Below the pieces are notes generated by a model. That model ran no database searches. It had not been told where the DNA came from and was given only the letters and a program-made list of their open reading frames with translations. Made by a program: the position numbers and the translations under genes. From a virus, in the IMG/VR virus record IMGVR_UViG_3300025132_000251, positions 1 through 26,041 of that record: a DNA stretch of 26,041 nt. One strand, 5' to 3'. Position 1 is the first letter of the stretch; each line of letters starts with the position of its first letter. Positions 1 through 18,219 of this stretch are shown one piece after another.

Positions 1-1466
1 GGCTCATCCTCTTCATCGGAGTGCAGACTCAGGAATCCTCCCTGTCTGAAACGAAGCAGTGCTTGCGTGGAAGAGTCTACCAAATCATCATGTTCGCCTG
101 CTGGGAACGCAGCAAACTCATTCATGACTTCTTCGGCAAACCGTGTTTCAGGACACCAGACTGTGCCTGATGCGAATAGATCCGCAACTGCATTCACTCT
201 GGCTATCTTGTCATTACCACGGGACGGTGTGTATTCCTGCACCGGGATACCCATCGCTCTTAACTCGAATATTAAAGGCATTCCTGCCGCTTTCCCTTCC
301 ACAATAAATGCATCAGGTTGCATCTCCTTGTACATTTCAAAAGCGGTTTTCTTGAGTTCTGGGAACTCTAGCCGCTCTTTATATGCATCAAGCAAGATGA
401 TCTGGGGTTTAGTGACCCCCTCGTCATCGGGGTGGTAAAATACCCCCCATGTTGTGCAAGCAGAGTAGTCTGCCCGTTGTGTCTTGAGAAACGCTGTATC
501 CCAGGACTGTATGACAAAATCACATGGCGGAGGGCTGTCATATTCCCATATCTTCCACCACTCTTTCTTTACTAGTGCGCCTCCCTCGGAGGTCGGATTT
601 TGCTGATACTGTGCATTCCATTTGGAAGCAGGCAGTTCAGATTGAAGCGCAGATAACTCTGCGAGGCTCCAGAACTCAGGCCATAAAGGTTTCCCTGAAG
701 GCATGATTGCCGGAAATTCGATCACTTCCCACTCATCAGTTCCCTGTCTCTGGGCGGAAGCTTTAATAATCTTGCCCGTAAGGTCACGCATGTGCCATCG
801 GGTCATTACAATAACAATTGCCCCACCGGGCTGTAATCTCTGCCTGGGGCCAGATGTATACCAGTCATAGGTGCGGTCAAATACAGCCGGGTCTATGCTC
901 TGTCCTTCCTGTTCACTATGAGGGTCATCAATAATCAACAGGTCAGCACCTTTACCAGTCACTGCCCCGCCCACCCCGATAGCGAAGTATTCTCCTCCTG
1001 AACTTGTACTCCAGCGTCCTGCGGCCTTTGAATCAGCCCTTAACGCCAGACCGGGGAAAACCTTCTTGAAATCATCACTATCGACTAGGTTACGAACCTT
1101 TCTGCCAAAACCAACCGATAACTCAGCGGTGTGTGCCGTCTGTATGATCTTTTTATCTGGATATTGCCCAAGAAACCATGCCGGAAGTAAAAAGGAAGCA
1201 AATTCAGACTTGGTATGACGAGGCGGCATATTCACTATTAACCGCTTCAGTTCGCCTCTTGCTATCTTTTCAAAGGCTTCTGCCATAATCTTGTGATGTC
1301 TGCCCTCTATAAAGGCAGGCCACATATACTTGGCAAAATCAATAAATCCTGCCTGCGCTGCTTCCTTTCTCTGAGCTTCTTCTAATTGTCCAAGAAGCTT
1401 TAGAATCTCTTCCTGCTCATTAACAGGAAGGTCTTTAACATTTTCCAGAGTCAGACCATCAAGCAT
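1..1466 (-). CDS. terL: Terminase large subunit (TerL), C-terminus cut by window edge
   Basis: This is the packaging motor: an ATPase that pumps DNA into the prohead plus a nuclease that cuts concatemers. The reading frame is open for 488 codons from the chosen start to the window edge with no stop. Seen: a Walker A-like loop MPPRHTKS at about residues 80-87, Walker B LLIIDDP at 176-182, a coupling motif MTRWH at 221-225, then an RNase H-like nuclease with acidic residues in SWDTA (D323), VEGKAAG (E390) and GEHDDLVD (D460/D461). The ATG at 1466 has a GGAA about 7 nt upstream. An in-frame ATG at 1481 would add MWNIF but has no good ribosome-binding site, and a stop lies just before it. The array of palindromes begins 35 bp upstream. 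TerS lies upstream on the same strand after a long non-coding gap. The family call is very secure; the packaging type is not determined. Confidence 0.96.
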   Translation of the reverse strand, partial: MLDGLTLENVKDLPVNEQEEILKLLGQLEEAQRKEAAQAGFIDFAKYMWPAFIEGRHHKIMAEAFEKIARGELKRLIVNMPPRHTKSEFASFLLPAWFLGQYPDKKIIQTAHTAELSVGFGRKVRNLVDSDDFKKVFPGLALRADSKAAGRWSTSSGGEYFAIGVGGAVTGKGADLLIIDDPHSEQEGQSIDPAVFDRTYDWYTSGPRQRLQPGGAIVIVMTRWHMRDLTGKIIKASAQRQGTDEWEVIEFPAIMPSGKPLWPEFWSLAELSALQSELPASKWNAQYQQNPTSEGGALVKKEWWKIWEYDSPPPCDFVIQSWDTAFLKTQRADYSACTTWGVFYHPDDEGVTKPQIILLDAYKERLEFPELKKTAFEMYKEMQPDAFIVEGKAAGMPLIFELRAMGIPVQEYTPSRGNDKIARVNAVADLFASGTVWCPETRFAEEVMNEFAAFPAGEHDDLVDSSTQALLRFRQGGFLSLHSDEEDE

Positions 1467-1500
1467 AAATATGTTCCACATGAAACATTAAGCGCATCCC

Positions 1501-1563
1501 TTAAATAGTATTTAAGTTAAATATTATTTAGTTTAAATAGTATTTAGTCTAAATAATATTTAA
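1501..1563. repeat. Four tandem 15-bp palindromes in 16-bp register (iteron/operator array)
   Basis: Seen directly: units at 1501-1515, 1517-1531, 1533-1547 and 1549-1563, consensus YTAAATA-N-TATTTAR, each separated by one base, so the centres at 1508, 1524, 1540 and 1556 are exactly 16 bp apart. The first unit is a perfect dyad apart from its centre base; the others have one arm mismatch each. The array ends 34 bp from the TerL start codon. Regular spacing of dyads is typical of cooperative binding of a dimeric protein, either as origin iterons or as a repressor/activator operator. Which of these applies cannot be told from sequence. Confidence 0.85.
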
Positions 1564-1627
1564 ACCCCCTTTTCTCAAAAAGGCAAATACCTATCTAGAT
1601 AAAATCTATCTACCAAAACATATCTAG

Positions 1628-1642
1628 CTAAATATTATTTAA
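1628..1642. repeat. Fifth, detached copy of the AT palindrome
   Basis: CTAAATATTATTTAA matches the consensus of the four-unit array with one arm mismatch. Its centre at 1635 is 79 bp from the last array unit, one base short of five 16-bp periods. It is followed by GGAGAAG on the plus strand, but no gene starts there. Confidence 0.7.
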
Positions 1643-1687
1643 GGAGAAGTAATAACTTACAGCATGAGTTTAGCATTTAAGGGGGGG

Positions 1688-1716
1688 TTGACATAAAAGT
1701 CAATACTAATTTTGAT
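1688..1716 (+). promoter_or_regulatory. Candidate sigma70-type promoter with dyad over the -35 box
   Basis: TTGACA at 1688-1693, a 17-bp spacer, then TTTGAT at 1711-1716 (4 of 6 matches to TATAAT). The -35 box is the left arm of the inverted repeat TTGAC-ATAAAA-GTCAA, so a bound dimer could block it. Transcription would run rightwards across the non-coding region and antisense to terS, with no obvious plus-strand gene to express. It could make a non-coding transcript, or it could be a chance match. Confidence 0.3.
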
Positions 1717-2011: not shown

Positions 2012-2485
2012 TTAATGCAATTTGCCTGGTTCGTGCTGTATGTTGTTGATCTTGTTGATTTTATTTGTGAGCTCTTCAATGATTTCTTTAGAGCTTTTGC
2101 TATCATCTCTCTGCACTACTACGTTTTTATACAATGCCATTGTGTCACCAAGTAGTTTGGCGCTAGTTAACTGGGATTGCGTTAACTCTATCTCACCATC
2201 TATGCATTTTCTTAGCTTCTGGATGATTGCTTCTTTATGGCTTAGTAGAGCTATGCTATCTAGCCTACTAGTCTCTTCTTTTAACTTTTCAATTGTGGTT
2301 TTGATGTGGTCGTTATCCATCAACCGGCAAGCTTCTCTTCTGATTGTTGAATCTTTCATATTGTCGCAATTGTAGACTTCTAAATATGCATCGGTGAGAG
2401 TTTTCCCATGTCTCCCGACCAGTTCGCTAAATTTCAATTGCTTTGCTGTTAGGTTAACTTTGTTTTTTGTCATGTTCTTATCCAT
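2012..2485 (-). CDS. terS: Terminase small subunit (TerS)
   Basis: This is the DNA-recognition subunit that loads TerL at the packaging site. The 157-residue protein begins with the family pattern: LTAKQLKFSELV at about residues 12-23, then a DAYLEVYN segment, then RREACRLMDN and helices. This matches the helix-turn-helix N-terminus of small terminases (usual form: T-K-Q-x-x-F, AY, SA..LL.N..V). The middle and C-terminal parts are helical and charged, fitting oligomerisation. The start ATG has AGGA about 10 nt upstream; a second ATG five codons in is possible. It is divergent from the Gp88-like gene with a 162-bp shared upstream region. Length and position next to TerL agree with the call. 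Confidence 0.85.
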   Translation of the reverse strand: MDKNMTKNKVNLTAKQLKFSELVGRHGKTLTDAYLEVYNCDNMKDSTIRREACRLMDNDHIKTTIEKLKEETSRLDSIALLSHKEAIIQKLRKCIDGEIELTQSQLTSAKLLGDTMALYKNVVVQRDDSKSSKEIIEELTNKINKINNIQHEPGKLH

Positions 2486-4920: not shown

Positions 4921-5196
4921 ATGGATAAGTATATAGTAGTAGTGGTTCGCAAAAATGTAGATGGTAAAAGAGACTATCTGCAAGTGGACTCATGGTCTTG
5001 TGGTTCACCAATAATTGTCGATCAGGAGACTGCAAACAAAGCCATAGCTGAACTTAATGATAAAGCATCTGGGTCTAGAGGTTTTGAAGAAATCAAAAAT
5101 GCATTCGCAATTTATGTGGGCAATCTTTCATTTGCAGAAACCACTACCCTGACTCGATCAATTCAATCCGCACAACTTCAAAAAAGGACTGCGTAA
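4921..5196 (+). CDS. Hypothetical protein, 91 aa
   Basis: Not recognised. The frame is open upstream, but the start at 4921 is taken because GGGGAGAG sits 2-9 nt before it and the first residues (MDKYIVVVVRKNVDGKRDYL) look like a normal beta-strand start. The protein is a small alpha/beta domain without motifs. Its stop overlaps the ArdC start as TAATG, so both are probably co-translated. That coupling hints at a shared role with antirestriction, but this is context only. Confidence 0.75.
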   Translation: MDKYIVVVVRKNVDGKRDYLQVDSWSCGSPIIVDQETANKAIAELNDKASGSRGFEEIKNAFAIYVGNLSFAETTTLTRSIQSAQLQKRTA

Positions 5197-6017
5197 TGGA
5201 ACTCAAAACTCAGATTGTCGAAGAGATTAAGTCACTCATTCAAACGCATGGAACTGACTGGAAATGCGGATTTAATCGCTTAAACGGAATGCCCAGTAAC
5301 CCTATTACTGGAGCAACCTATACTGGCTTCAATGCCCTATGGCTTGGTCTGATGGGCATACAATATGCCGCCACGTTTAATCAATGGAAGAAGGCAGGAT
5401 ATAAGATCAGGAAGGGCAGTAAGTCTATAAAGATATCTCGACCAAGTGTCTCTAAAAAAATTGGAGAGGACGGTAAAGAAGAAACAAAAACCTGGTTCCG
5501 ACCTTACTCTGTTTTTTCTTCAGAATGCATTATCAACTTCGATACTCCCCCAGCATTTCAAAATGAAACCCAAGCTTGTCAGGAGCTAGATGACCTACTT
5601 TTAGTGGGTGGAACTGAGATCAGAACATCCCAAGATGGTAGAGCTTTTTATGATATTAAAGGTGACTACATTTCTCTGCCTCCAGTAGAGGCATATACCG
5701 CTACACAATTCTCGACTGCTACCCAAGTCAGATATGGAACTGAAATGCATGAAAAAGGGCATGAGATGGGCAAGTATTTCGATGCATTCAAAAAGAAATT
5801 TGATCGGGCAAAAGAGGAACTGGTCGCAGAGATTTTTGCTTCAATGGCTTGTATCGGCAAAGTGCAGAATCGAATGCAACCTGAGAACGCACAGTATCTT
5901 GGAGGTTGGCTCAAAGGTATAAAGGACGATGAAACGTATTTGGTTGATGCGGTTGATCAAGCATTTGATCGACTAAATCTTTTAACTGAAATGGCTGCTT
6001 CCAGAAAAGCAGCGTAA
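5196..6017 (+). CDS. ardC: ArdC-type antirestriction protein (ssDNA-binding domain + zincin)
   Basis: The ArdC family protects incoming DNA from restriction. Members combine an N-terminal ssDNA-binding domain with a C-terminal zinc metallopeptidase-like domain, as in conjugative-plasmid ArdC and TraC-type proteins. Seen here: NPITGATYTGFNALWL at residues 35-50 and a KKAGYKIRKGSKSIKI stretch at 65-80, typical of the first domain. HEKGH (185-189) is the HExxH zinc site, followed by EELVAEI (207-213) supplying the usual third ligand, and then the characteristic YLGGWLKGIKDDETYLVDAV end. At 273 residues it is near the expected length. Overlapped TAATG start after the 91-aa gene. A methyltransferase lies 3 kb downstream in the same block. 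The actual substrate of the zincin is unknown. Confidence 0.85.
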   Translation: MELKTQIVEEIKSLIQTHGTDWKCGFNRLNGMPSNPITGATYTGFNALWLGLMGIQYAATFNQWKKAGYKIRKGSKSIKISRPSVSKKIGEDGKEETKTWFRPYSVFSSECIINFDTPPAFQNETQACQELDDLLLVGGTEIRTSQDGRAFYDIKGDYISLPPVEAYTATQFSTATQVRYGTEMHEKGHEMGKYFDAFKKKFDRAKEELVAEIFASMACIGKVQNRMQPENAQYLGGWLKGIKDDETYLVDAVDQAFDRLNLLTEMAASRKAA

Positions 6018-8888: not shown

Positions 8889-9115
8889 CTTATATACTAT
8901 GTAGTTTTGGAGAAGGATATCCTGAGAGCGATCCTCAAGTTCACAAGCTTGAGGATTTAATTGTTTCTGAGGACTACAATTTAGATCCACATCAGGTTGT
9001 CGAGCTTTGTAGGCTAGAGGTGGGAGAGACATACACTGTGCATGAAATAACCTACATCAATTACTTCAAGCGGATAGAGGATGGTGAAGCGAATGAACGT
9101 GTTGTCTCTGTTTGA
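8885..9115 (+). CDS. Hypothetical acidic protein, 76 aa
   Basis: Not recognised. ATGA start after GGGAGAGACAGC in the preceding gene. An acidic alpha/beta protein (MTYILCSFGEGYPESDP...) with no motif. Its 3' end overlaps the methyltransferase start by 23 nt in another frame, so expression of the two is probably coupled; it could be a small partner of the methyltransferase, but only position suggests that. Confidence 0.65.
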   Translation: MTYILCSFGEGYPESDPQVHKLEDLIVSEDYNLDPHQVVELCRLEVGETYTVHEITYINYFKRIEDGEANERVVSV

Positions 9116-10178
9116 CGGAATGTCTTGCACACAGTTAGCACTAAAAAAAGCAGACATACCAGTCACCAGGTACTTTGCAAGCGAAGTAGACAAATATGCA
9201 ATCAAGGTAACTCAAGCTAATTTTCCTGAGACAATTCAATTAGGTGATGTACGGCAAGTTACTGCGGATCAAGTCGGTGACATTGATTTGTTGGTGGGTG
9301 GTTCACCATGCCAAGGTTTTAGTTTTGCCGGAAAACGACTTGCTTTTGATGATCCCAGAAGTGCGTTGTTTTTTGAATTTGTCAGATGTCTTAAAGAAAT
9401 AAACCCCAGATATTTTTTGTTAGAGAATGTAAGGATGAAACAAGAACATTTAAATGTAATATCTGATTGCTTGGAGGTAGAGCCTATCTGCATAAACTCA
9501 GCATTAGTCAGCGCCCAGAATAGGGTCAGGTATTATTGGACTAACATCTCTGGAATAGAGAAGCTTGAAGATAAAGGTATTGTTTTGAGAGACATATTAG
9601 AAACGCATCCAGATAATTATACTTTGATGTCTGATAAATTTACCAAAAGGCAAGAGGGTAGAAAATGTCTTGTTGATATGAATAAACAAAAATCCGCAAG
9701 TTTGTCTGCTATGGAATATGTAAAAAATGGAAGACAGGGCGATTATCTTGCTTGCGAATCTACAGGCATACCAAAAGATTTATCAGACTCAATGGGTGGT
9801 GGACACCAAGAGCCTAAAGTTCTAGCAGGAGCATTTAGAGGAAGGTATGAAGATGATGGAACTGTCAAACAACATTTAGAACTTAGACAAGGTGGCAAGA
9901 CGAATTCCTTAACTACAGTGCAAAAAGACAATGTTGTTACCAGAGACGAAGTTTACTGGAGAAAACTAACACCAGTTGAATGTGAGAGATTACAAACAGT
10001 TCCAGACAACTACACGAATCATGTAAGCAATAGTCAGCGTTATCGAATGTTGGGCAATGGGATGACGGTAGATGTTATTGCATCAATTTTAGAAAAAATA
10101 AAAACGAATAATTTATCGCAGGACGTTATGCCATCTCATTTTCGAGAAGAACAATTGGTTTTGCCTATTGTCGATTAG
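9093..10178 (+). CDS. DNA (cytosine-5) methyltransferase
   Basis: Transfers a methyl group from S-adenosylmethionine to C5 of cytosine. Residues count from the ATG at 9093. Motif I LSLFDGMSCTQLAL is at 4-17, and motif IV GGSPCQGFSFAG (69-80) carries the catalytic C73. Motif VI LLENVRM is at 109-115, motif VIII QNRVRYYW at 142-149, a target-recognition region lies at about 180-285, and motifs IX/X follow: RLQTVPDNYT (299-308) and RYRMLGNGM (316-324). All key residues are intact in a 361-residue single-domain enzyme. An in-frame ATG at 9081 is possible, but its GAGG abuts the codon, whereas 9093 has better spacing. No restriction enzyme gene is adjacent, so it looks like a solitary phage methyltransferase that could mask restriction sites. 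Target sequence unknown. Confidence 0.95.
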   Translation: MNVLSLFDGMSCTQLALKKADIPVTRYFASEVDKYAIKVTQANFPETIQLGDVRQVTADQVGDIDLLVGGSPCQGFSFAGKRLAFDDPRSALFFEFVRCLKEINPRYFLLENVRMKQEHLNVISDCLEVEPICINSALVSAQNRVRYYWTNISGIEKLEDKGIVLRDILETHPDNYTLMSDKFTKRQEGRKCLVDMNKQKSASLSAMEYVKNGRQGDYLACESTGIPKDLSDSMGGGHQEPKVLAGAFRGRYEDDGTVKQHLELRQGGKTNSLTTVQKDNVVTRDEVYWRKLTPVECERLQTVPDNYTNHVSNSQRYRMLGNGMTVDVIASILEKIKTNNLSQDVMPSHFREEQLVLPIVD

Positions 10179-10224: not shown

Positions 10225-10512
10225 ATGCAGAGAATTGATAAACCTTTTCGTATAAACCTTCATGTTGTCCCTTCGACCTCTTTTCTTGAGGTTCCATTAG
10301 AGCTCTTCCCGGTCTTGGGTCTTGACGCAAAAGACTTCTCCACAATCCCATTGTGGGAGTCCATAAAGAATAATGATGCATGTTTTCTGGAAGAAACCGT
10401 TGAGATGCCTAAATTTTTAAATCGGTATCGTGAATATATGGAAGAGTCTCCCACAATTCATAAGACAATCCAGTACTTCAAGCTAGACAATACTTATTAT
10501 CCTCTTACTTAA
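10225..10512 (+). CDS. Hypothetical protein, 95 aa
   Basis: Not recognised. Start at 10225 with AAAGGAGAA six nt upstream; the frame is open back to 10168 but without a site. The protein (MQRIDKPFRINLHVVPSTSF...) has alternating strands and helices and no motif. It is the last gene of the plus-strand block and overlaps the convergent minus-strand gene tail-to-tail by 8 bp. No clear intrinsic terminator is visible between the two blocks. Confidence 0.7.
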   Translation: MQRIDKPFRINLHVVPSTSFLEVPLELFPVLGLDAKDFSTIPLWESIKNNDACFLEETVEMPKFLNRYREYMEESPTIHKTIQYFKLDNTYYPLT

Positions 10513-10972
10513 ATCGCTTCATCGGGTTTTTTCTGGGGGCATAAATATGCTGGGTGATGGCATCTAGTCCTTCACCTAGCAGTTTCATTTTACCCTCACT
10601 TTCTGATACATCTGTATTTTTGCAAACCACTTCCTCTACAAGTGAAGAATGTAATGCGGAGGTATTTTTTTCTATTACTTTCAAAAGATTTCCAAGTGCA
10701 AATATGCCCGTGGGAATTCTCTCTGGTATGCCACCGAATGTCTGATTATCCCAGTTCTGGGTCTTGGCATATATGCCTGATCCACTAGCATTCGCCATGA
10801 TAACCTCTGCGCTCTGGTGTTGGGATAGCGTTATCACTCCTTGGATAAGGTAGCGATCAATAATGGCTTGATCCATTACCTTGCTGCGAGAAACCTTGTT
10901 GTCTATCGTTTCAACAAGAATGGAATGCCGTTTATGGATCTCGTCAGTGCCTAAATCCGAATACTTTTCCAT
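10505..10972 (-). CDS. Unknown protein coupled to primase-helicase, 155 aa
   Basis: No family assigned. Its ATG directly follows the TAG of the primase-helicase, so both are in one transcript and probably co-translated. The helical segment DQAIIDRYLIQGVITLSQHQSAEVIM (residues 34-59) has the 'RY..G.IT..Q..A' pattern seen in some uncharacterised phage and alphaproteobacterial helical proteins. The C-terminal third (LLKVIEKNTSALHSSLVEEV and LLGEGLDAITQHIY) is helical and the very end is basic (PRKNPMKRFK). Possibilities are a transcription regulator or a replication accessory factor; both are inference from position. Confidence 0.75.
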   Translation of the reverse strand: MEKYSDLGTDEIHKRHSILVETIDNKVSRSKVMDQAIIDRYLIQGVITLSQHQSAEVIMANASGSGIYAKTQNWDNQTFGGIPERIPTGIFALGNLLKVIEKNTSALHSSLVEEVVCKNTDVSESEGKMKLLGEGLDAITQHIYAPRKNPMKRFK

Positions 10973-12727
10973 CTAGAAATCCTCATCAAAGTCATCGAGA
11001 TAATGCTTTCTTCCCTTATATCTGGAGCTAAATGATTCACCAGACTTCTCAAAATAACAACCTGTTCTCAGGTCGTACTCTAATTCAACCGTACCTTGCT
11101 GCCCTATGTGTTTGAATCTGCTTTTCCAGCAATGAATCTCCACAATATCATCATGCTTTCTATGCACAGTTAATCCTATTGCAGGCTTACTAAACCAGGA
11201 CATAGATCCACTGATCGAGGTTCCTTTGGGGACAGGATATGTGCCATCTTCTTTTAATGGCATCTTCGATGGGTGCGCTACAAACCAGACATGGATGTCA
11301 TTTGCAGAAGCAAAAGCCGTGATCTGGGTTAGCATCTTGGAGATGCTTTGATGCTCATTAGTTAGGTCATGGTCGATAAAATTGTAGGGGTCTATGATAA
11401 GACCTCTTATACCCATCCTGAGTATGGCATCTCTGGTTCTGGATAGAATAGATTCCATTGTGCTAAGTTCTCCAGACTTATTCTCTAGGAAAACAAAATG
11501 AGAATTTATAAAGGTCATTGCCTCATGTAATTCTTCTCTGTTCATCCTTGAATCAGGAGTGCCAAAAAAAGATTTTCCAATTATCTTCTCTGCGATTTTA
11601 CTGATATGCATGTGTGGTGGGTTTTCAAACGAGCAGATAGCAAACTTCATCGCATGTAACTGGGCAAGCCTGAGACAATAGAAGTCTAGCCATTCACTCT
11701 TTCCGCTATTCGGCATACCCGTGACAACAGTTAATTGTCCTGGTGCTGTAGTAAACAGGTTATCAACACACTCTATATCTATACCGAAACCTCTACCAGT
11801 GCCATGAACATAGATGTTTTCAACGTCATCCATGTATTCCATCGCACTATAGACCCCGGACAGGGGCATCGGAGATGCATTATCGATGATTTCTTTAAGA
11901 GTATCCGAACCATGCTCTGCAATAACGTCAGTTATGTCTTTTGTACCCTCTGGGAAGGCGATTTTCCAACACTTAGCCCTCCCAATTCGTCTTGCAAGCT
12001 CTTCCTGTAGGGCAACCCCTGCCTCATCGTTATCTGTCGCTAAGATGATTTTCTCTGCACTTTCTAACAAGTTCTTAGCCTCAAACACGTAAGAGAACTT
12101 AACATCCTCCTCTGGACTCATTTTCCTGTTAGATATCTTTGCTGGAGCGCCATTAGGGACACTTAATGCCTGTATTCCTACTGAAGCCAGTGCTACACAG
12201 TCTGCTTCACCCTCTACTATGTAAATAGTTTCTGGGGCTTCTGAGAGCTTCTCAAGCCCATAAAAGGTTCTGGCTGACCCATCCTGTGTAAAGTTCTTTG
12301 TATCCACTGCCCTCCACTTGATAGCCTCATCCTGGTAAACAAAACCAACAGCATCAACATTGCCCACACCATGAAAATACTTCTGACCTGTAACCATCGA
12401 TGGAAGATTGCCAATAGAATCAATCTTTATGCCACGATTAGAAAAGAATCTCTGAATTAATTCAGTATCCATGTTTAGTTTGGTGGGGATCTGTACAACC
12501 GGGGTTTGTTCAACAGGAGGAAAATCTTCAATATAATCCTCATAAAAAGGTTTTGATTCTATTGCTCCTTGAATCTCACAATGATGGCAGTAATAAAGTT
12601 TTACATCAGACTCTACGGTTATTGATAAGGTTTTTTGTCCCTTCTTCTTTCTGGTTTTGCCGCAATTAGGACACTCAACACGGCACGACTGGTTCTTTCT
12701 CGACACAAGTTCTTGTGCTTCATCCAT
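10973..12727 (-). CDS. Primase-helicase (T7 gp4/Twinkle-like)
   Basis: A bifunctional replication enzyme: RNA primer synthesis plus DnaB-type helicase. The zinc ribbon is C19/C22 (CPNC) with C47/C50 (CHHC). The TOPRIM domain has IYIVEGEADCVAL (E172, E174) and ILATDNDEAG (D232, D234). The RecA-like helicase shows Walker A GMPNSGKS at 337-344, the FAICSFENP strand at 362-370, Walker B LIIDPYNFID at 443-452, and a sensor strand HVWFVAHPSKM at 479-489. At 584 residues it is close to the T7 gp4 length. The start has AAAGGAGAGGGAG upstream. The intergenic region ahead of it carries the same AT palindromes found ahead of TerL. No phage DNA polymerase is seen nearby, which is unusual for a gp4-type enzyme unless the polymerase lies outside the window. 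Confidence 0.92.
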   Translation of the reverse strand: MDEAQELVSRKNQSCRVECPNCGKTRKKKGQKTLSITVESDVKLYYCHHCEIQGAIESKPFYEDYIEDFPPVEQTPVVQIPTKLNMDTELIQRFFSNRGIKIDSIGNLPSMVTGQKYFHGVGNVDAVGFVYQDEAIKWRAVDTKNFTQDGSARTFYGLEKLSEAPETIYIVEGEADCVALASVGIQALSVPNGAPAKISNRKMSPEEDVKFSYVFEAKNLLESAEKIILATDNDEAGVALQEELARRIGRAKCWKIAFPEGTKDITDVIAEHGSDTLKEIIDNASPMPLSGVYSAMEYMDDVENIYVHGTGRGFGIDIECVDNLFTTAPGQLTVVTGMPNSGKSEWLDFYCLRLAQLHAMKFAICSFENPPHMHISKIAEKIIGKSFFGTPDSRMNREELHEAMTFINSHFVFLENKSGELSTMESILSRTRDAILRMGIRGLIIDPYNFIDHDLTNEHQSISKMLTQITAFASANDIHVWFVAHPSKMPLKEDGTYPVPKGTSISGSMSWFSKPAIGLTVHRKHDDIVEIHCWKSRFKHIGQQGTVELEYDLRTGCYFEKSGESFSSRYKGRKHYLDDFDEDF

Positions 12728-12781
12728 CTCCCTCTCCTTTACTTAGCGCAATTTATATGTTATTTATTTAGGTTTTTACCC

Positions 12782-12868
12782 TTAAATAAGTATTTAAATT
12801 GTTAAATTATTTATATTAATTACCTCTTTTTATTCATCTAAATACTATTTAGTTTAATAAGTATTTAA
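12782..12868. repeat. Second locus of AT palindromes
   Basis: TTAAATAAGTATTTAA (12782-12797, 7-bp arms with a two-base centre), CTAAATACTATTTAG (12838-12852, perfect arms), and TTTAATAAGTATTTAA (12853-12868, 15 of 16 identical to the first). The last two are centred about 16 bp apart, the same phase as at 1501-1563. A weaker match lies at about 12802-12814. On the minus strand both loci end in TATTTAAGGG on the side facing the gene they precede. Confidence 0.75.
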
Positions 12869-12910
12869 AAAACAAATACTTATATGCGTCTAGAGAAGTC
12901 TTGTGGAGTC

Positions 12911-12958
12911 TATTACAATCTGTAATAATCCGTCTTGATGGGTACATGACTCATCAAG
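12911..12958. repeat. Two perfect inverted repeats
   Basis: TATTACA-ATC-TGTAATA (12911-12927) has 7-bp arms with a three-base centre, a typical operator layout. CTTGATG (12934-12940) and CATCAAG (12952-12958) are 7-bp arms around an 11-base loop. They lie between the AT palindromes and the end of the 96-aa gene. Confidence 0.6.
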
Positions 12959-12970
12959 GATGTACTCCCT

Positions 12971-13261
12971 CTAGCGCCCCTCTCCTTCAACTCTCCCGAA
13001 GGAGGGGGTTTTTAAAGAATCAAGATGATTAATTATTTCTTTAGCCATCCTTTTCTGTTGAACATGTGATAATAGCATCAAGTCGAAAAGACTGTCACGC
13101 AACTCAGACGGATAATTTGCTCTGGCACAATGCTCGATAAATAAATCTCCATTGAAGTATGCAATAGCAAGTTGTTTTCTTTTTTCATGGCGATTAACAA
13201 GGTCTCTTATCGATCTTTTTATCATTGCCTGGTGCATATTTATTTCAATTTCATTATTCAT
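12971..13261 (-). CDS. Hypothetical helical basic protein, 96 aa
   Basis: Not recognised. Starts in an 8-nt overlap (ATGAATAA) with the end of rusA, so it is coupled to it. The product is helical and basic, with HEKRKQLAIAYFNGDLFIEHC (residues 25-45) and a helix DLMLLSHVQQKRMAKEIINHL. It ends in a short SFGRVEGEGR tail encoded by the hairpin region. A DNA-associated role would fit its company (RusA, primase-helicase), but no motif proves it. Confidence 0.7.
   Translation of the reverse strand: MNNEIEINMHQAMIKRSIRDLVNRHEKRKQLAIAYFNGDLFIEHCARANYPSELRDSLFDLMLLSHVQQKRMAKEIINHLDSLKTPSFGRVEGEGR
12982..13013 (+). terminator. Terminator-like hairpin on the plus strand
   Basis: CTCCTTC (12982-12988) pairs with GAAGGAG (12998-13004), extended by CCC/GGG through a T-G pair, and is followed by TTTTT (13009-13013). 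In the plus direction this is a good intrinsic terminator shape, but it lies inside the 3' end of a minus-strand gene and no plus-strand gene precedes it closely. It would end only a transcript started in the 12728-12970 region. Confidence 0.45.
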
Positions 13262-17964: not shown

Positions 17965-18219
17965 ATGAAACAAGACAAAGAAGATACAAGACAGAAGATA
18001 GAAGAACAAACTAAAGCGTTTTTAGAGAAAGGTGGAAAAATTGATTACGTTGAAGGATCAGAAAGAAACGCTGCCTACAATGTGACCTTTAAGCTTGGTG
18101 TAAAAAATGTTCCTGTTTATTCCAGAACCATATCCCCCCAAAGTGAATATTTAAAAAGGAGGTGGGCTAAAAAACAAGCTGAGTTAGAAAAAGCGAGGAG
18201 AGATTTTTCTGATGATTGA
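17965..18219 (+). CDS. Hypothetical small basic protein, 84 aa
   Basis: Not recognised with certainty. The segment KAFLEKGGKIDYVEGSER (residues 17-34) is of a type seen in small phage and bacterial proteins in which a helix is followed by 'F...GG.I..v'. The C-terminus is a basic helix (YLKRRWAKKQAELEKARR). The ribosome-binding site is weak; it starts 4 bp after the previous stop. A nucleic-acid or RNA-polymerase-associated role is possible but unproven. The last 8 nt overlap the next gene. Confidence 0.65.
   Translation: MKQDKEDTRQKIEEQTKAFLEKGGKIDYVEGSERNAAYNVTFKLGVKNVPVYSRTISPQSEYLKRRWAKKQAELEKARRDFSDD

Follow-up and report, generated by a model that had tools for sequence, protein, structure and literature searches.

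Introduction

What connects two distant minus-strand loci of a phage genome that carry the same palindromic element, one in front of the primase-helicase gene and the other in front of terL? The window, that is, the whole stretch of DNA analysed here, is the complete linear IMG/VR virus record IMGVR_UViG_3300025132_000251 (26,041 bases). According to the original prediction, the shared element reflects a phage-encoded regulon linking replication and packaging. The features needed for the argument are as follows, with the strand given where one was assigned.

3..1481, minus strand: terL (phrog_38, E 2.8e-107), open at the window end
1501..1564: late (terL) array, in which four dyad units of 16 bp abut one another
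1629..1641: single dyad copy, close to the late promoter-like element
1667..1704, minus strand: promoter-like block with TTGAC, TGTCAA (1688-1693) and the -10-like TAAACT (1667-1672), conserved across 18 late loci in an alignment
2012..2485, minus strand: terS (phrog_51, E 9.5e-9; Terminase_2, E 0.0013, below the cut-off)
10505..10972, minus strand: p155, a 155-aa protein, gene directly 3' of the primase gene, candidate reader of the arrays
10973..12727, minus strand: primase-helicase (phrog_239, E 7.7e-70)
12782..12797: dyad site 1 before the primase gene, TTAAATAAGTATTTAA
12838..12852: dyad site 2, CTAAATACTATTTAG, a perfect 15-bp dyad
12853..12868: dyad site 3, TTAAATAAGTATTTAA with one mismatch, abutting site 2
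12971..13261, minus strand: s96, a 96-aa small helical protein whose gene lies immediately upstream of the primase array; a weaker candidate for the reader

Dyad arrays in the window

The two copies of TTAAATAAGTATTTAA with one difference between them were found as predicted, and so was the perfect dyad CTAAATACTATTTAG about 16 bp from the second copy (centres at 12845 and 12860.5). Sites 2 and 3 follow the 16-bp phase of the terL array with its four units. Both loci were also said to end in TATTTAAGGG on the minus strand, 53 bp before the helicase gene and 34 bp before terL. The common ending holds, but the distances differ when counted by eye. At the primase locus, CCC (12779-12781) stands 51 bp before the primase ATG. 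At the terL locus, CCC (1498-1500) is 16 bp upstream of the ATG at 1481; counted to the in-frame ATG at 1466, the distance is 31 bp.

The exact dyad TAAATA-N(1-2)-TATTTA occurs seven times in the window, at 1502, 1518, 1534, 1550, 1629, 12783 and 12839. All seven are intergenic, five in the terS-terL gap and two before the primase gene, whereas dinucleotide shuffles of the whole window gave a mean of 0.01 (200 shuffles). The observed five and two dyads were each reached by none of 1000 intergenic shuffles. Many equally good matches in coding regions had been named as an argument against the prediction, and for the exact dyad there are none. A loose search allowing up to two mismatches also gave weaker matches in coding DNA (22457 and 22654), and thus the loose matches carry no information.

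The dyad centres, 0-2 nt long, give the inner pairs no room for a hairpin loop, so that duplex DNA is a better fit than RNA. Judged from the sequence, binding of a dimer to DNA is therefore more likely than RNA hairpins. No Rfam family matched the window at the gathering score. Beside the primase array, a promoter-like TAGAGA-17-TACAAT followed by a terminator-like hairpin was observed on the plus strand (12891-13010). It is possible that a short RNA is made there, opposite the end of s96.

Arrays and words in related phages

The period seen in the window is also present in its relatives. Autocorrelation of 25 primase arrays gave z 9.4 at lag 16, and that of 16 late arrays gave peaks at lag 16 (z 3.9) and lag 17 (z 4.6). 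The word of the dyad varies by lineage (CTAGTAAnTTACTAG, CTAGnACnGTnCTAG, AGGAATATTCCT, CGTATATATACG and AGTAGACTACTT), and about six distinct words were counted by eye among the records that have arrays at both loci. Several words contain G+C. The closest relatives, contigs L003-L006 (TerL 98-99% identical to that of the window), keep the word but differ in copy number: L003 has seven sites, and L004, L005 and L006 have five each. In a scan of all viral contigs, the exact tandem pair was found only in these four. At some of 80 terL loci with a non-coding leader, more distant relatives have other palindromes at the corresponding place, for example GGTAATTACC with TGATCAGG; about L037-L047 were left out of this reading. 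In record G035, CTAGTAAnTTACTAG-type units stand before the primase gene and before the late operon and both end in TTACTAGGGG, and in G036 CTAGnACnGTnCTAG is present at both loci.

The primase search yielded 80 loci, from which L180-L182, lacking a start, were set aside. Tandem palindromes were seen by eye in 66 of the 77 loci kept, many lineages having a word of their own, and no array was seen in the other 11. Arrays are absent at terL of the named relatives HTVC027P, HTVC023P, 023Pt_psg01 and DSL-LC04, and at both loci in MinM2. In the main text of a paper on the temporal expression of HTVC027P, the word 'promoter' does not appear (PMC12753301). A possible hairpin between the array and the primase start was noticed by eye in several primase leaders (e.g. 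L112, L116 and L143); its arms seem to co-vary, with CTACC/GGTAG in some and CCATC/GATGG in others.

Match between the two loci

The correspondence between the primase and late loci was measured in 18 records by comparing 12-mers on both strands, with no motif model and with a primase region of 170 bp. In 12 of the 18, the two loci are reciprocally the best windows of the whole record, sharing a lineage-specific word. When 720 other low-coding windows of the same records were used as controls, the best match was the primase locus in 7 and the late locus in 11. The other six records (G001, G056, G057, G059, G061 and G063) have neither a reciprocal match nor a primase array. The 12 x 12 cross matrix gave a permutation p of 5e-5 for records that are not independent (TerL is 97% identical between G066 and G067, and 95% between G035 and G049). 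The own late locus ranked first in 8 of 12 rows and in 7 of the 12 columns, and the misses are mostly between records with similar words. In four records the scores are not clearly above those of their own controls, of which 3/25 (G058), 8/25 (G068), 7/25 (G048) and 2/25 (G075) reached the observed score; there, the evidence is the position of the match and not its height. No third locus was seen, the other top windows scoring far lower in most records.

These results support the predicted link between replication and packaging loci. The word changes between phages whose TerL proteins are about 80-87% identical, and this speaks for a reader encoded by the phage and not by the host.

Promoter-like block of the late locus

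Late loci were read from 19 records, in segments set by hand from ORF maps, and 16 of them have the TGTCAA block (G076, G078 and G079 do not). As primase arrays are also missing from some records, neither of the two sites is universal. In the alignment of the 18 late loci, which is anchored on TGTCAA itself, TAnnnT lies at +20 from TGTCAA in 17 records; the exception is the window, where it lies at +21. When the window was scanned with a simple consensus, no promoter was called at its late block. According to inspection by eye, the first dyad lies roughly 20 bp beyond TAnnnT in many records. Thus, the late array is located in the presumed leader.

Proposed two-locus regulon and alternatives

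We consider that the dyads are probably the operator arrays of a two-locus regulon, which would be controlled by a phage-encoded dimeric DNA-binding protein. From the observations above we infer the protein reader, its phage origin and the coupling of replication to late genes. In the proposed mechanism, dimers would bind side by side on palindromic units of about 16 bp. One array would lie in the leader of the terS/terL late region, just downstream of the conserved promoter-like element, and the other in front of the primase gene and p155. The regulator would then couple the start of the replication genes to the start of the late genes. Its DNA specificity would shift between phage lineages, and both arrays would shift along with it. 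As the late array is wholly downstream of the promoter-like element, the sign of control is most likely repression or a road-block of elongation, as far as the layout of the sequence can tell. A close alternative is that a factor of the Q or GafA kind acts there, by activation or antitermination.

Four other explanations of the arrays were weighed. An AT-rich spacer divides the arrays at both loci by eye, and the units that flank it could be iterons of a replication origin, two loci being needed as in P4, which requires both ori and crr for replication. The position of one array before the primase-helicase gene fits such an origin. However, the GC skew, corrected for strand, reaches its minimum close to the primase gene in just 3 of 11 records (G036, G068 and G075), and six of the 18 records have no primase array, so that we regard iterons as unlikely.

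Another possibility is that TerS binds the arrays. They would then be a packaging signal of the cosB or pac type next to terS, repeated in front of the primase gene. The late array does stand in the gap between the two terminase genes, and TerS is far more divergent (median identity 36%) than TerL (79%), but we judge this possibility to be quite unlikely. The contig L005 keeps the TAAATAnTATTTA array of the close relatives of the window, whereas its TerS is only 58% identical to that of the window, and between G035 and G049, whose words are similar, the identity of TerS is 43%. Both comparisons disfavour TerS as the reader. The correlation of TerS with the word is among the lowest (0.23, and 0.36 after adding sequences), and a packaging role leaves the primase array unexplained. 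As a separate observation, the TerS allele of L005 is about 53-58% identical to those of its relatives although TerL is 98-99% identical; judged from these sequences, TerS seems to be exchanged or fast-evolving.

In the case of a host transcription factor, the words would differ because the hosts differ between lineages. The late promoter-like block resembles the host sigma-70 type, and the phage reader so far exists only as candidates. Nevertheless, words that differ at about 80-87% TerL identity would demand very different host specificities in near relatives, and only two loci per phage respond, which makes a host reader very unlikely. Functionless selfish or slippage repeats of AT-rich DNA would suit the different copy numbers of close relatives but are hardly credible, since dyad symmetry, a 16-bp phase and a match between the two loci are seen repeatedly in words that are unrelated to each other and of which several contain G+C.

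Candidate readers of the arrays

For the two-locus regulon, p155 is put forward tentatively as the reader. It belongs to the conserved non-structural families, its gene was present in all 19 records compared, and as the reader it would control the operon of its own gene. The AlphaFold model of p155 has a pLDDT of 72.7. Its best aligned solved structures are Q21 and sigma-4 domains (Z up to 5.6). Against Q21 (6jny and 6p1a) the alignments have Z 5.4-5.6 and rmsd 4.4-4.8 over 89-95 residues, a level of Z (about 5.5) that is common among helical folds. In a Foldseek search of a viral library with the model (pLDDT 73), DUF6456 proteins were matched with prob 1.00 and E 4e-3 in one case and prob 0.89 and E 0.49 in another. 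According to the model, the predicted fold of p155 weakly resembles Q21/sigma-4 and DUF6456, the GafA domain. At the sequence level, no DUF6456 match was obtained by a Pfam scan of 19 p155 members or by NCBIfam, PF20057 was found in none of 15 records at E 1, and the p155 profile against one DUF6456 protein was not significant (probability 0.5 of 100). Sequence matches of p155 in the PDB (spike proteins and an acetyltransferase) were taken as chance.

The protein s96 was rejected as the reader, being a generic helical bundle for which pairs at least 75% identical can have unlike words. A RusA-like resolvase gene lies, like s96, upstream of the primase gene on the minus strand. When protein identity was compared with word similarity, no family stood out, and all were confounded by relatedness; one such comparison covered 64 of 78 entries and then 32 representatives. 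A Pfam search of 30 of the 88 listed window ORFs gave no evident regulator. Among 67 ORFs of G035 and G036, HTH families were found, each matched by one member.

Comparison with known systems

Q21 is the late antiterminator of phage 21. It is encoded after the replication genes and acts at the late promoter, and p155 is likewise encoded after a replication gene. The p155 model aligns with Q21 at Z 5.6 over 90 residues, in the chance range for helical folds. The elements bound by Q proteins are direct repeats, whereas the elements described here are palindromes.

GafA is a DUF6456-type regulator of the RcGTA gene transfer agent. According to the available part of the report on it (PMC9638019), homologous proteins carry the annotation DUF6456 or helix-turn-helix, and the C-terminal part of GafA forms a dimer that binds two promoters, that of GafA itself and the one upstream of terS in RcGTA. 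One dimeric regulator thus acts on its own promoter and on one upstream of terS, and the parallel is appealing because p155 lies in the operon behind one array. Unlike GafA, p155 has no DUF6456 sequence match, and the resemblance of the folds is weak. Tandem palindromic arrays are not mentioned for GafA or RcGTA in that part of the report.

In Cluster A mycobacteriophages, which are temperate and have a known repressor, up to about 30 stoperator sites of 13 bp are present, mostly in one orientation, and some block elongation, as described in the accessible portion of PMC6550527. The resemblance to the arrays, on that portion, is that lineage-specific operator words occur at several places in the genome and diverge with the phages. 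The arrays here differ in being confined to two loci, in their palindromic tandem units and in having a reader that is a candidate only. Also unlike those temperate phages, no integrase (PF00589) was found in 15 records here, several of which are fragments. Literature searches for such arrays or operators gave no description.

Other features of the window

A further palindrome, TGTTYCAYRTGGAACA, is present at 1472-1487. Sites of this type were also observed at G001:46968, G035:49791, G036:33862, G004:6416, G009:7045, G010:15076, G015:5976, G049:18924, G058:939, G068:7832, G075:45119 and G055:6182. Within two mismatches, it occurs in 14 of 28 records, usually once in each (the site in G071 is weak, and G075 has a second, weak site). 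We take TGTTYCAYRTGGAACA to be parS-like by its consensus. A ParB domain (PF02195) was found in none of 15 records, several of them fragments. As the central bases vary, the palindrome may be an RNA hairpin instead of parS.

The plus-strand operon of the window contains genes for an anti-restriction-like protein (5196-6017; phrog_7245) and a DNA methyltransferase-like protein (9081-10178). Also on the plus strand, an 84-aa protein (17965-18219) matches the SutA RNAP-binding domain (PF20661, E 2.6e-10). Such domains are known from gammaproteobacteria, and the match may be a hint at the host.

Implications

A broader reading is possible but speculative: a GafA/Q21-like dimeric regulator encoded behind the primase gene would recognise the tandem palindromes of two places, the late promoter and the replication operon to which its gene belongs. 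This would amount to an operator code of two loci, specific to each lineage, in phages that are apparently non-temperate. A fast change of specificity would insulate the timing switches of co-infecting relatives from one another.

If the two-locus regulon is true, these phages would be a natural collection of operator pairs that co-vary, the specificity of the regulator changing in step with that of its own operon and of the late operon. The switch from replication to packaging in an uncultured phage family would become directly testable. If specificity changes fast in phages that have no known lysogeny genes, the question would arise of what selects for the change.
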